Assembly: GCA_019237135.1 (NCBI GenBank)
Contig: JAFAHQ010000100.1
Coordinates: 1 to 35,633 of the forward strand
Length of the DNA stretch: 35,633 nt
Direction of reading: 5' to 3'
Source: Alphaproteobacteria bacterium
Lineage (GTDB): Bacteria; Pseudomonadota; Alphaproteobacteria; ATCC43930; CGMCC-115725
How positions within the stretch are numbered: the first letter of the stretch is position 1; each line of letters starts with the position of its first letter. Made by a program: the position numbers and the translations under genes. This document shows positions 8,093 to 28,217 of the stretch, one piece after another. A model generated the notes under the pieces. The model ran no database searches. It saw only the letters and a program-made list of their open reading frames with translations, and had not been told where the DNA came from.

Positions 8093-9932
8093 TTTCACCG
8101 CGGCGCGCGCATATCGGCAATGGCACGTCGGTTCGACATTCCTTTTCGTGTTGCTGGCGGGCGGGACGCGGCCGATGCCCGCAGTGGCGCAGGGCGGACC
8201 GGAAACCCCGCCTGCCGCGGGTGGTGGCCCCGCCGGTGGAGGACCCGAAACTCCGGCGGTTACCGGTGGCGCTCCGGCGGGAGGGGGACCCGATATCCTG
8301 CCGCTTGTACCGGGAGGAGGGTTCGGTTTTCCAAATCCGCTCAACCCGCCGGGGGCGATAAATAATGCGGCTCCTCCGGTAGCGGCGGGAGCACCCTTCA
8401 ATCCACTCGGTCTTACACCCCTCGGGTTTGGTGTGGTGCCGTTGCAGGCGAACGACCCAAACGCGCCCGCCTATCTGATCCGACCCTATGCGTCGGTGAG
8501 CGAAACACTGACGGACAACGCGCACTATGTGCATTCCCCCCGGGACGCCGCCGCCTACACCAACCTTTCACCCGGGGTGTCCTTCTCGGCCGACACGCCG
8601 CGGCTCCAAGCCGTGCTTACTGGTAGTTTGAACACCGCCTTGTACATTCCGTCCTCCTCGAATTTGAACCAGGTCTATGGTTCTCTCTATGCAAACGGCT
8701 TTGGAACGATCGTGCCTGACGCTCTTTTCGTCAATCTCAACAGCTTCGTTACCCAGTCGACCACTCTGCCTGGCTTCGGTTTCCAGAATCTATCCCGGCT
8801 ACCGACAAACCAGCAGACGCAGGTTTACTCTAATACCGTCTCTCCTTTCTTGCGGAAGTCGTTCGACGGTCTGGTCGACAGCGAATTGCGGTATACCTTT
8901 GGCTCGACGAATTACGGGGGAAATACGGCGGTTGTGGCCTCCCCTCTGGGAACCCCGACCACCACCCTTGCCTCCAGCACTTTCAACGAAGGTACGTTTA
9001 TCGCCGCTACCGGCCAGGATATCAGCCGTACGCTCTCCCGGCTGACGCTCGACGCCTCGAACTACAACTCCGGCACGACGAACCAGAACTCCCAGGTCGG
9101 CGCATTCAACGATCTCGAGTATCGGATTACGCCGCAGATCGCCGCGCTCGCGCGGGTCGGCTATCAAAACATCCAATACCCGCATGCCCCGGCGGCGACG
9201 TTCGTCGGCCCGACTTGGCTGATGGGCGGGGCTCTCGGTAGTTACGCTATCGGCGGTTATGGGGCGGGCCCAGGGTACCTCGCCTTACAATACGGGCGGC
9301 AACAGGGTGTGTATGGTTTTACCGGGTCGGCCCAGTATAACATCACCCCGACGATGGTGTTTACTGCCAGCCTGGTCCAAGGAGTCAGCGGGCAGTCGCA
9401 ATACCTCGCGAGTACCATCGCTAGCTCGACTCTGGATCCCTATGGGTCGATCGTTGATGAGTATTCGGGTCTGCCGACCGCTTTCTACACCCCGGGGCTG
9501 GGTCTGTCGAACAATGTTTACAGGCAGCATTTGCTAAATTTTGGCGTGACCGAAACGATCGAACGCGACCATTATACGCTGTACGGCACAGCCTCCAACT
9601 ACCAGTCGCTGACGCCCCCAATCACGGCTCCCACCAAAAGCGTCGGAGTGAATTTTAGCTGGGGTCGCGATATCAGGCCCGACCTCAACGGCTATGCTTC
9701 TCTCGGCTATTACAATTCTTCAAACGTAGTTACAGTAACAGGCGGGAACCCCTTCGGCAGCTTGAATACGCTAACTGGATCTCTCGGCGTCAACTATCTT
9801 TTTGCGCAGAATCTGACCGGCTCAATTCTCTATAGTTTCTCGTATCAACCCAATGGCTTTGGCGGCACCACGGGGCGCGGCGCGGACGTCGTGGTCAATC
9901 AGTTGACTTTTTCACTCAGCAAGGCATTTTGA
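8064..9932 (+). CDS. XrtA/PEP-CTERM system-associated outer-membrane beta-barrel protein (TIGR03016-like)
   Basis: Signal-like N-terminus, Gly/Pro-rich linker, then repeated beta-strand-like segments ending in LTFSLSKAF; start overlaps the autokinase end. Confidence 0.8.
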   Translation: MCCARKIPRNFTAARAYRQWHVGSTFLFVLLAGGTRPMPAVAQGGPETPPAAGGGPAGGGPETPAVTGGAPAGGGPDILPLVPGGGFGFPNPLNPPGAINNAAPPVAAGAPFNPLGLTPLGFGVVPLQANDPNAPAYLIRPYASVSETLTDNAHYVHSPRDAAAYTNLSPGVSFSADTPRLQAVLTGSLNTALYIPSSSNLNQVYGSLYANGFGTIVPDALFVNLNSFVTQSTTLPGFGFQNLSRLPTNQQTQVYSNTVSPFLRKSFDGLVDSELRYTFGSTNYGGNTAVVASPLGTPTTTLASSTFNEGTFIAATGQDISRTLSRLTLDASNYNSGTTNQNSQVGAFNDLEYRITPQIAALARVGYQNIQYPHAPAATFVGPTWLMGGALGSYAIGGYGAGPGYLALQYGRQQGVYGFTGSAQYNITPTMVFTASLVQGVSGQSQYLASTIASSTLDPYGSIVDEYSGLPTAFYTPGLGLSNNVYRQHLLNFGVTETIERDHYTLYGTASNYQSLTPPITAPTKSVGVNFSWGRDIRPDLNGYASLGYYNSSNVVTVTGGNPFGSLNTLTGSLGVNYLFAQNLTGSILYSFSYQPNGFGGTTGRGADVVVNQLTFSLSKAF

Positions 9933-25202: not shown

Positions 25203-25313
25203 GACGGACTCCCTCCGCCGGGCTCGCCCGGCCAGGTTCAGTGGGTTTGATCTCAGCCGCTCGTACCGCGCGACCTCCGCCGCGCGGCTAGGCGGCACCC
25301 CAGCCTCTCGTCA
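25202..25313 (-). promoter_or_regulatory. TPP (THI-box) riboswitch
   Basis: Minus strand: TGACGAGAGGCTGGGGTGCC...GGCTGAGATCAAACCCACTGAACCTGGCCGGGCGAGCCCGGCGGAGGGAGTCCGTCA; conserved GGGGTGCC, CTGAGA, ACCC, TGAACCTG and AGGGA elements with a closing P1 helix. Confidence 0.88.
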
Positions 25314-25438: not shown

Positions 25439-26305
25439 TTACTGCGTTCGCAGAGCGGTAGAAAGCGGTCTGGTTACCGGTTGGGAAAGCCTCGACACAG
25501 CGTCGGGGCTTTGGTGCAAAGACTTCGCGATCTTCCCGTGCGACCACCAATTCCAGGCCAGCGCCTCGGCCAGCTCGCTGGCGAGACAGCCGTAGCTCGC
25601 ATCCGTCATGTGCAGCCCATCAGGGCCAATCATCGGCGCCGGCGCCAGCTGTTGCGTATGATCCCATTCCTTCATGATCTCGAATCGACGAAATAGGCCT
25701 ACATGGTCGCTACGGGCGATCTCTCCGATCACCCGCTCCATCTCGCCCCAAGATGGTCGCGTGAGAACCCGTCGCGCATATTGCAGATCCATCAGGACGA
25801 CGTCGATCCCGACCTCCTTCATCAGCGAGACGCCTTGTCGAATCAATTGCTCGTCGACGGTTAAATCGTCGCGCCTCAGGACCGCATTCGTGCCGACCTG
25901 CCAGATAACCAGGTCGGGATGCTCCGCGACGACGTCACGATCAAGACGGTTCAGCTCTTCGCCGACATCCTGGCCTCCGATGCCGCGGTTAAGAACTCGG
26001 ATCTCGACAGCCGGAAAACGATCCCTCAGCTCCCGATCGAGGCGGCTGGGATAAGTCATGGAGGGGGCGCTCGCGCCGACGCCTAGCGTCGAGGAAGAGC
26101 CCATCGCGACGATGGTCAACGGGCTTCCTTGGTCGATTCGACGGGCACTGCGATCGAGCGCCACCCCGATCTCGGATAGCGCCGGCGACACCGCACAGCT
26201 CGGGACGCCGACGGTCCCTGGTTGCTCGGCCAGCGCCGGACAGAGCGACGTCAGGACCCCGGCAAAGGCCGCAGTGAGCCGTCCTATCGAGAGATGATGC
26301 GTCAT
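25439..26305 (-). CDS. SGNH/GDSL hydrolase family protein (catalytic residues intact), secreted
   Basis: Signal peptide-like MTHHLSIGRLTAAFAGVLTSLCPALA; block I GSSSTLG, block II NRGIGGQD, block III VGTNAVLR, block V DGLH. Confidence 0.85.
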   Translation of the reverse strand: MTHHLSIGRLTAAFAGVLTSLCPALAEQPGTVGVPSCAVSPALSEIGVALDRSARRIDQGSPLTIVAMGSSSTLGVGASAPSMTYPSRLDRELRDRFPAVEIRVLNRGIGGQDVGEELNRLDRDVVAEHPDLVIWQVGTNAVLRRDDLTVDEQLIRQGVSLMKEVGIDVVLMDLQYARRVLTRPSWGEMERVIGEIARSDHVGLFRRFEIMKEWDHTQQLAPAPMIGPDGLHMTDASYGCLASELAEALAWNWWSHGKIAKSLHQSPDAVSRLSQPVTRPLSTALRTQ

Positions 26306-27069
26306 TGGAGCGCCAACTGGATCGCTTCTGCCAGCTTGCGGCCGATACATTCGTAGACGCTTGCTGCTAGGCTCGCCCGCTCGCCCTTGGCTACCCCGTC
26401 GAAATTAAACACGTTCTGCTCGCTCCAATACCGCATCATCTCGAATCGCGGAAAGACATACAACTGGTTAACCTCGCCGACCCGATGAAGGGTGCTCAAA
26501 TAGCGCTCGAAGTCAATGACGGTCACGGTGCTGCGAGAAAATTGCATATCGATGAGAATGATGTCGATGCCGCGTGTCTTGAGTTGGTCGATCCCACCTT
26601 GCAGCGCCGTCGCGAAATCATCGATTTCGACCCCGCGGACGGCATCGGTGGTGCCGGTCTCCCAGATCACTAGGATCGGGTCCTCAGCAATGACATCGCT
26701 TGGAAACCGCTCAAGCATCTGCTCCGCGGTTTGCCGCGGGACCCCCTTATTCACCACAGTGATCGGGACAGCCGCGTACCAGCGGTCAAGTATTTCCTGT
26801 AACCGATGTGGATAGGCAAGGTCGGGTGATCCCGCAGCCCCGCCAGTCGTCGAGGCTCCGCCGATTGCAACGATCTTGACCGGGTTTCCCGCTCGTAGCC
26901 TTTCGCTCAGATGGGGCAAAGCGACTTCGACCCGTATTAACTCGGCCGGAACATCGCACCGGGCGTCGCCGCCGAAGGCGGACGGCAAATACGCAATTAC
27001 CGCGACCCCCAGACCGCCTGCCAGATGAAGCGCCCGCTGGATAAAGCCGCCGGCTAGATGACACCTCAT
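26302..27069 (-). CDS. SGNH-like protein with degenerate catalytic blocks, secreted
   Basis: Co-linear with neighbour (IVAIGGASTTGGAAGSPDLAYPHRL; VIWETGTTDAVR) but block II GIGG->GVPR, block III GTN->GTT, and no DxxH. Confidence 0.75.
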   Translation of the reverse strand: MRCHLAGGFIQRALHLAGGLGVAVIAYLPSAFGGDARCDVPAELIRVEVALPHLSERLRAGNPVKIVAIGGASTTGGAAGSPDLAYPHRLQEILDRWYAAVPITVVNKGVPRQTAEQMLERFPSDVIAEDPILVIWETGTTDAVRGVEIDDFATALQGGIDQLKTRGIDIILIDMQFSRSTVTVIDFERYLSTLHRVGEVNQLYVFPRFEMMRYWSEQNVFNFDGVAKGERASLAASVYECIGRKLAEAIQLALQ

Positions 27070-28217
27070 GATGAGGTCATCCTATTTCCACTATTGCGCG
27101 CCCCTCCAGTCGACAGTGTTCTACCCATGCTTTTATACCAGTCAATCATTTTCGCCGTTAAACACAACGCAAGAACGCCGGCGACGTTGACAGCGAGCTG
27201 GGTTACGATCGTTGAGTTATACTCCGACAAGAGAAAATGACCGAGCGCCGATAACAAAATCCCAAAGCAAAAAACTTCCAACGATTGCTGACCACATCTG
27301 ATCAACGGCTTTGTCAGTGAAGAACTCAAGAATTTAGTGTCGGACGATATTAAAGTTGTGATGATAAACACCGCCGCAAAGAACGGCACGAGCCGGATCG
27401 GTGACAAATTGTTCTTGTTGATCGGCCACAGTTCCTTCAAGAATAGGCCGGGAAACGGATCCCAGATCCCGTGGATCGTCCAGCTGAGCTTTATGATAAG
27501 CCCGGCTGCGGCAATCGCGATTGCAATTAGCAACGGAGCGCTCGTGGAGCGCAGCCGTCGGCCGACCCAGGCCTCGCCGAGACCGAGTGCGGCTCCCGCG
27601 GCAAACAGGAATTGCCAAGCGAGGGGGTTGAAATACCACACATGGCCCTCCGGATAGGCCGGAACAGACACATCAGTGGCCTGCACTATGGCGTAGACGA
27701 GGAACGATGGGATCAGGACCAACAGCAGCTGTAGCCGCAATCCGAGCAGGATCGCCGGGAATATGACCAAAAGCAGGATGTAAAGGGGTAGGATATCGAG
27801 GAAGGTTGGCTGAAACTCGAGCAGGAGCGCCTTGACAATGGCGACGTGCGGCTCTTCGAGAAAGTCGGCAACCCGCATTTCGTCGTTGTACATCGGATTG
27901 TTGAAAGTCGTTACCGTATAAGAAACTTCAGCAATGAAGATCATAAACAGGAAGATATGGGCGACGTAGAGTTGCCATGCTCGGCGCAGAATCTGCGCAG
28001 TGGCGTAAAGTGCGCCCTGTGACGCGAGTGTCCGACCGTAGACAAGGGCGGCAGTATACCCTGAGATAAAGATGAAGACTTCCGCCGCATCATAGAACTG
28101 GAACGCCTGCAGTGTGAAATAGCTGAGAACGTTCTCTGGAATATGATCGATAAAAATGAAGATCAGAGCGAGGCCGCGAAAAAAGTCGAGGCGGAGATCG
28201 CGCGGCTGTGAAGGCAC
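27066..28217 (-). CDS. OpgC-family membrane acyltransferase
   Basis: RDLRLDFFRGLALIFIFIDHIPENVLSYFTLQAFQFYDAAEVFIFISGYTAALVYGR; multiple TM segments; GTG start. Confidence 0.92.
   Translation of the reverse strand: MPSQPRDLRLDFFRGLALIFIFIDHIPENVLSYFTLQAFQFYDAAEVFIFISGYTAALVYGRTLASQGALYATAQILRRAWQLYVAHIFLFMIFIAEVSYTVTTFNNPMYNDEMRVADFLEEPHVAIVKALLLEFQPTFLDILPLYILLLVIFPAILLGLRLQLLLVLIPSFLVYAIVQATDVSVPAYPEGHVWYFNPLAWQFLFAAGAALGLGEAWVGRRLRSTSAPLLIAIAIAAAGLIIKLSWTIHGIWDPFPGLFLKELWPINKNNLSPIRLVPFFAAVFIITTLISSDTKFLSSSLTKPLIRCGQQSLEVFCFGILLSALGHFLLSEYNSTIVTQLAVNVAGVLALCLTAKMIDWYKSMGRTLSTGGARNSGNRMTSS

Follow-up and report, generated by a model that had tools for sequence, protein, structure and literature searches.

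What does an OpgC-type membrane acyltransferase do when its gene stands beside those of two SGNH-type proteins, and which of the two is a working enzyme? The question is raised by a cassette of three minus-strand genes in the window, the whole 35,633-nucleotide stretch of alphaproteobacterial DNA analysed here. A preliminary description had read the cassette as a translationally coupled operon that acylates a periplasmic or surface glycan. Re-reading of the open reading frames confirmed the three genes and the coordinates given for them. The cassette and its downstream border comprise the following features.

27066–28217, minus strand: OpgC (PF10129, TmAT superfamily), polytopic membrane acyltransferase; GTG start, 383 amino acids, 378.6 bits
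27066–27069, minus strand: 4-nt ATGA overlap of the OpgC stop and SGNH2 start; conserved junction
26302–27069, minus strand: SGNH2, PF25182 paralogue with a dead active site; 255 amino acids, 213.4 bits
26302–26305, minus strand: 4-nt ATGA overlap of the SGNH2 stop and SGNH1 start; junction not conserved
25439–26305, minus strand: SGNH1, PF25182 paralogue with the full SGNH residue set; 288 amino acids, 161.2 bits
25312–25193, minus strand: TPP riboswitch (RF00059), downstream of the cassette and upstream of thiO; 39.7 bits, below the Rfam gathering score of 54.3, E = 1.3e-6

In profile searches both SGNH proteins match PF25182 (NonGDSL) above its curated cut-off of 80 bits, and GDSL lipase models match both more weakly. 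The window belongs to a 77%-complete draft genome, whose single OpgC gene and two PF25182 genes are those of the cassette. Upstream lie CoA-transferase-like genes, across a gap of 365 nt. The riboswitch precedes thiO and suggests separate control of the thiamine genes, which would probably leave the cassette as a unit of its own. The thiO ORF begins with a GTG at 25298, inside the riboswitch, and the real thiO start should therefore lie further downstream.

The arrangement was surveyed at two scales. In a class sample of 192 alphaproteobacterial genomes, drawn evenly, profile searches found PF25182 above its cut-off in 21 genomes and OpgC_C in 44. OpgC_C is present in 20 of the 21 PF25182 genomes compared with 24 of the 171 others (Fisher p = 5e-14), and the PF25182 and OpgC genes are adjacent in 19 of the 21. 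A locus scan with an OpgC alignment covered 84,980 species genomes, one genome per species, and is less biased because the SGNH genes were left out of the query. Among its best 80 loci, drawn from a larger set and so a measure of conservation within the window's OpgC subfamily rather than a census, 66 carry OpgC, SGNH2 and SGNH1 in this order and on the same strand; several of the other 14 end at contig borders. Carriers include Bradyrhizobium, Afipia, Tardiphaga, Rhodopseudomonas, Ancylobacter, Azospirillum, Telmatospirillum and Acetobacteraceae; of these, Bradyrhizobium, Azospirillum, Ancylobacter and Rhodopseudomonas have species that are easily handled in the laboratory. The triple is thus conserved beyond close relatives, an expectation of the preliminary description that the survey bears out. 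Only the cassette recurs between genomes: no flanking genes are shared within about 10 kb on either side, and the recurring clusters of neighbouring ORFs are mostly antisense shadows of the three cassette genes. In Azospirillum brasilense the triple lies on a plasmid among transporter and amidohydrolase/hydantoin-type genes, where it is annotated as an OpgC domain protein and two 'GDSL-type esterase/lipase' genes.

The two junctions differ in their conservation. OpgC and SGNH2 overlap in 58 of 73 loci (by 4 nt in 43 and by 1 nt in 15), whereas SGNH2 and SGNH1 overlap by 4 nt in 7 of 65 loci and stand more than 100 nt apart in 38. Both ATGA overlaps previously reported for the window are present there, but across loci only that between OpgC and SGNH2 is conserved, and the overlaps leave translational coupling as a possibility only.

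The catalytic positions of the two SGNH proteins were located in an alignment of 90 SGNH1 and 87 SGNH2 sequences, from which all residue counts are taken.

26093–26095, minus strand: SGNH1 Ser71 codon, predicted nucleophile, block I (GSSST); Ser in 89/90
25886–25888, minus strand: SGNH1 Asn140 codon, block III (GTN); Asn in 89/90
25610–25621, minus strand: SGNH1 Asp229-x-x-His232 codons, block V; Asp in 89/90, His in 88/90
26854–26856, minus strand: SGNH2 Ala72 codon, aligned with the nucleophile position
26647–26649, minus strand: SGNH2 Thr141 codon, aligned with the oxyanion Asn position

SGNH1 has the residues and the fold of an intact SGNH enzyme. Blocks I, II, III and V are all present, with Gly108 of block II kept in 90 of 90 sequences, and the N terminus is signal-peptide-like. 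An AlphaFold model (pLDDT 88, pTM 0.80) matches PDB entries with TM-scores of up to 0.89 by target length (4rsh) and E-values down to 8e-12, the best matches being acetyl esterases (acetyl-mannan and acetyl-xylan) and TesA-type SGNH hydrolases. At one locus (L080, genome G158, about 8814–9614, minus strand), a PF25182 protein beside OpgC has lost the Ser, Asn and His; it groups with SGNH1 in the tree, not with SGNH2, and apparently represents a second, independent loss of the catalytic residues.

SGNH2, which the preliminary description had counted as a second working enzyme, lacks the catalytic set in all homologues examined. In the window the nucleophile is replaced by Ala72 and the oxyanion Asn by Thr141, and the DxxH motif is missing. 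Across the alignment, the nucleophile position holds Ser in 8 of 87 sequences (Arg in 36, Ala in 26, Gly in 15), the Gly108 position of block II holds Gly in 15, and the oxyanion position never holds Asn (Val in 54). In block V, Asp occurs in 3 of 87, and the His position is mostly Glu, Asp or Ala, with His essentially absent. In 74 of 87 sequences a Ser persists beside the position of the lost nucleophile, without the Asn and His partners. A substitute Ser/His active site was rejected, as neither residue reaches 90% conservation at any position over the 87 sequences. The window's SGNH2 keeps Cys38/Cys241, W136, G139, Q176, R208 and M212, and in the alignment a Cys pair (C37/C240), W135, G138, Q175, R207 and M211 are common to both proteins. 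The shared Cys pair and fold residues identify SGNH2 as an SGNH fold with an erased active site. It also passes the PF13472 cut-off (37.1 bits), and the SGNH part of a modelled OpgC-SGNH2 fusion, described below, matches SGNH structures with TM-scores of 0.6–0.74 by target length. SGNH1 and SGNH2 separate at one branch (support 100) into two clean paralogue clades, a split that fits a single duplication. Median omega is 0.20 for SGNH2, 0.28 for SGNH1 and 0.15 for OpgC, which places SGNH2 under purifying selection; a decaying gene is ruled out by its intactness in more than 80 loci and an omega of about 0.2.

SGNH2 is tied to OpgC in several lineages. In two genomes (loci L111 and L150), OpgC and SGNH2 form one ORF of 631–633 amino acids (67% identical), whose end overlaps the start of SGNH1 by 4 nt. 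The natural fusion at L150 was folded as one chain covering both proteins (pLDDT 89, pTM 0.64). The membrane half is all-helical, and a long last OpgC helix is predicted to run to residue 394 and lead into the SGNH domain, whose orientation is unreliable at this pTM. The layout is the same as that of AT3-SGNH proteins, whose periplasmic SGNH domain is accompanied by an 11th helix (PMC9833829). In genomes G109 and G028, SGNH2 stays beside OpgC and SGNH1 lies on another contig. OpgC-SGNH2 occurs with no SGNH1 found in the genome in G104 and in the Acetobacteraceae drafts G192, G193 and G194 (loci L091, L094 and L095); here the pseudoenzyme outlives the enzyme. OpgC accompanied by SGNH1 alone is found in G155, G055, G026, G136 and G058, and most of these one-partner genomes are incomplete drafts. 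Lineages of both kinds imply that either SGNH partner is dispensable. At L159 (437–5198), a tandem OpgC-SGNH2-OpgC-SGNH2-SGNH1 shows that OpgC and SGNH2 were duplicated together.

OpgC itself matches OpgC_C (PF10129) over profile positions 1–357 of 358, at 378.6 bits against a cut-off of 21.4. D11, R14, G15 and H25 are invariant in 18 homologues, and a DxxR motif and the His lie in the first membrane helix; D11 and R14 together with H25 are taken as the putative acyl-transfer core.

We propose that OpgC, SGNH2 and SGNH1 work together, at the inner membrane and in the periplasm, as an acyl-transfer module of three parts. Acyl-CoA is bound by TmAT proteins, which bring the acyl group to the outside (PMC9833829, PMC12423673), and by analogy with this superfamily OpgC would carry an acyl group from cytoplasmic acyl-CoA to the periplasmic face. 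SGNH2, catalytically dead and presumably made in step with OpgC, may serve the latter as a subunit for docking or gating. SGNH1, exported and with a full active site, would receive the acyl group on Ser71 and pass it to a glycan. The broad concept already put forward in the preliminary description, in which a membrane donor works with a periplasmic transferase, is supported. Our confidence in the three-part module is kept at a moderate level because either SGNH partner appears dispensable.

SGNH1 might instead work against OpgC in an editing cycle, in which OpgC acylates, SGNH1 removes acyl groups as an esterase, and SGNH2 serves as a non-catalytic glycan-binding subunit. The nearest PDB folds of SGNH1 are indeed acetyl-mannan and acetyl-xylan esterases, and PC-esterases have been suggested to combine the roles of acyltransferase and esterase as a pair (PMC2824669). 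The fold of SGNH1 is equally compatible with esterase and transferase activity, however, and the SGNH domains in the known TmAT pairings, OafB and OatA, are needed for transfer (PMC9833829), so we regard such a cycle as unlikely. Slightly less credible still is canonical succinylation of osmoregulated periplasmic glucans (OPGs) by OpgC alone, with the SGNH genes incidental or ester-trimming. The family name points this way, as does OpgC of Rhodobacter, an OPG succinyltransferase (PMC9558356) of the same membrane family; OpgC is known as a stand-alone succinyltransferase in OPG systems (PMC9558356, PMC4726272). Unlike the cassette OpgC, the Rhodobacter protein lies in an opgGIH operon. In a quick OpgC tree, some of whose branches are long, though not in the clade at issue, one 33-row clade (support 97) unites the window's OpgC with every SGNH2-linked OpgC and also includes two rows with SGNH1 only and three unlinked ones. 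The OpgCs adjoining opgG, which are without PF25182 genes, fall inside a separate 12-row clade (support 99), so the OPG role should not be extended to the window's OpgC, as had been done initially. The window's OpgC has neither opgG/opgH linkage nor OPG backbone genes in its 77%-complete genome, in which no MdoG was found. Among the 192 genomes, 18 of the 21 with PF25182 have no MdoG/OpgG match, and OpgG does not co-occur with PF25182 (3/21 against 20/171, p = 0.72). Nor is so close and recurrent an association with SGNH2 and SGNH1 incidental. OpgG glucans are thus rejected as the acceptor for the cassette's OpgC subfamily, on the clade split and the lack of co-occurrence.

The acceptor first suggested for the module was the exopolysaccharide of the XrtA locus, whose exosortase and sugar genes lie on the same contig at about 10.9–19.2 kb. 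We consider it very improbable that the cassette acylates this polymer. Exosortase occurs in 2 of the 21 PF25182 genomes and 22 of the 171 others (p = 1), which is no co-occurrence. About 11 kb and several unrelated genes (GH1, HhH-GPD, rhomboid, thiG and thiO) intervene in the window, and cassette flanks differ in all genomes, the A. brasilense cassette lying in its own setting of transporter and hydantoin-type genes. A shared operon with the XrtA locus was rejected on the same two grounds of co-occurrence and flanks.

A different glycan is suggested by the class sample. GH17 is present in 13 of the 21 PF25182 genomes and 23 of the 171 others (p = 3e-6, raw counts), and the association holds when counted by family (9/15 against 14/116, p = 9e-5). 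The GH17 matches are mostly partial and lie in long frames (about 900 and 580 amino acids; G026, G072, G152, G171, G184 and others), as would be expected for GT2-GH17 beta-glucan synthases. There is no physical linkage between GH17 genes and the cassette, and no GH17 in the window's 77%-complete genome. The beta-glucan of a GH17-containing synthase is the best lead to the acceptor, and is offered as a lead only. A link to cyclic beta-1,2-glucan synthase (PF06165) was discarded as not significant (2/21 against 4/171, p = 0.13).

Several known systems share parts of this design. AT3-SGNH fusions (OafB, OatA, PglI) likewise combine a polytopic TmAT-type protein with a periplasmic SGNH domain, and in OafB the C-terminal SGNH domain follows an extra helix, as in L111 and L150. 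They use AT3 (PF01757) where the cassette uses PF10129, and in the cassette the linked or fused SGNH is dead while the active one is a separate protein. The alginate (AlgI-AlgJ-AlgX-AlgF) and cellulose (WssH-WssI-WssF) acetylation systems also use a single acyl exporter in the membrane together with two SGNH-type proteins in the periplasm. Their exporters are MBOAT proteins, whereas that of the cassette is a TmAT protein. Both AlgJ and AlgX are active and have a circular permutation (PMC9487903), but the cassette SGNHs keep the unpermuted block order I-II-III-V and one is dead; the cassette operon also lacks a polymer synthase, unlike these systems. PC-esterases (Cas1p/CASD1) resemble the cassette in joining an SGNH-like domain to a TmAT membrane domain, but are eukaryotic, form one polypeptide and keep the catalytic Ser-Asp-His (PMC2824669). 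In the open literature, outside which most subscription journals lie, we found no description of the cassette or of a conserved dead SGNH partnering or fused to an acyl exporter. TmAT-SGNH and two-SGNH acylation systems are already known, and the conserved dead SGNH partner is apparently new.

These results bear first on annotation. The database labels 'OpgC' and 'GDSL-type esterase' mislead, since one of the two 'esterases' is without an active site. At L184 (NZ_CP032347.1, 6899–8471), both SGNHs are labelled 'GDSL-type esterase/lipase family protein', and the OpgC-proximal one is of the active-site-less class. As to how TmAT acyl groups reach glycans, the cassette provides a stand-alone TmAT protein with two candidate partners, one active and one dead. 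We tentatively suggest, as an idea that could well prove wrong, that across the class the duplicated SGNH is an obligate dead subunit of the acyl exporter and may act towards its active twin as a lid, a gate or a platform for docking. Stand-alone TmAT proteins have been suspected of needing a partner, and if the suggestion is right this subunit would be it. The cassette suggests that a dead copy of an enzyme has become a permanent functional component of a machinery that decorates sugars.
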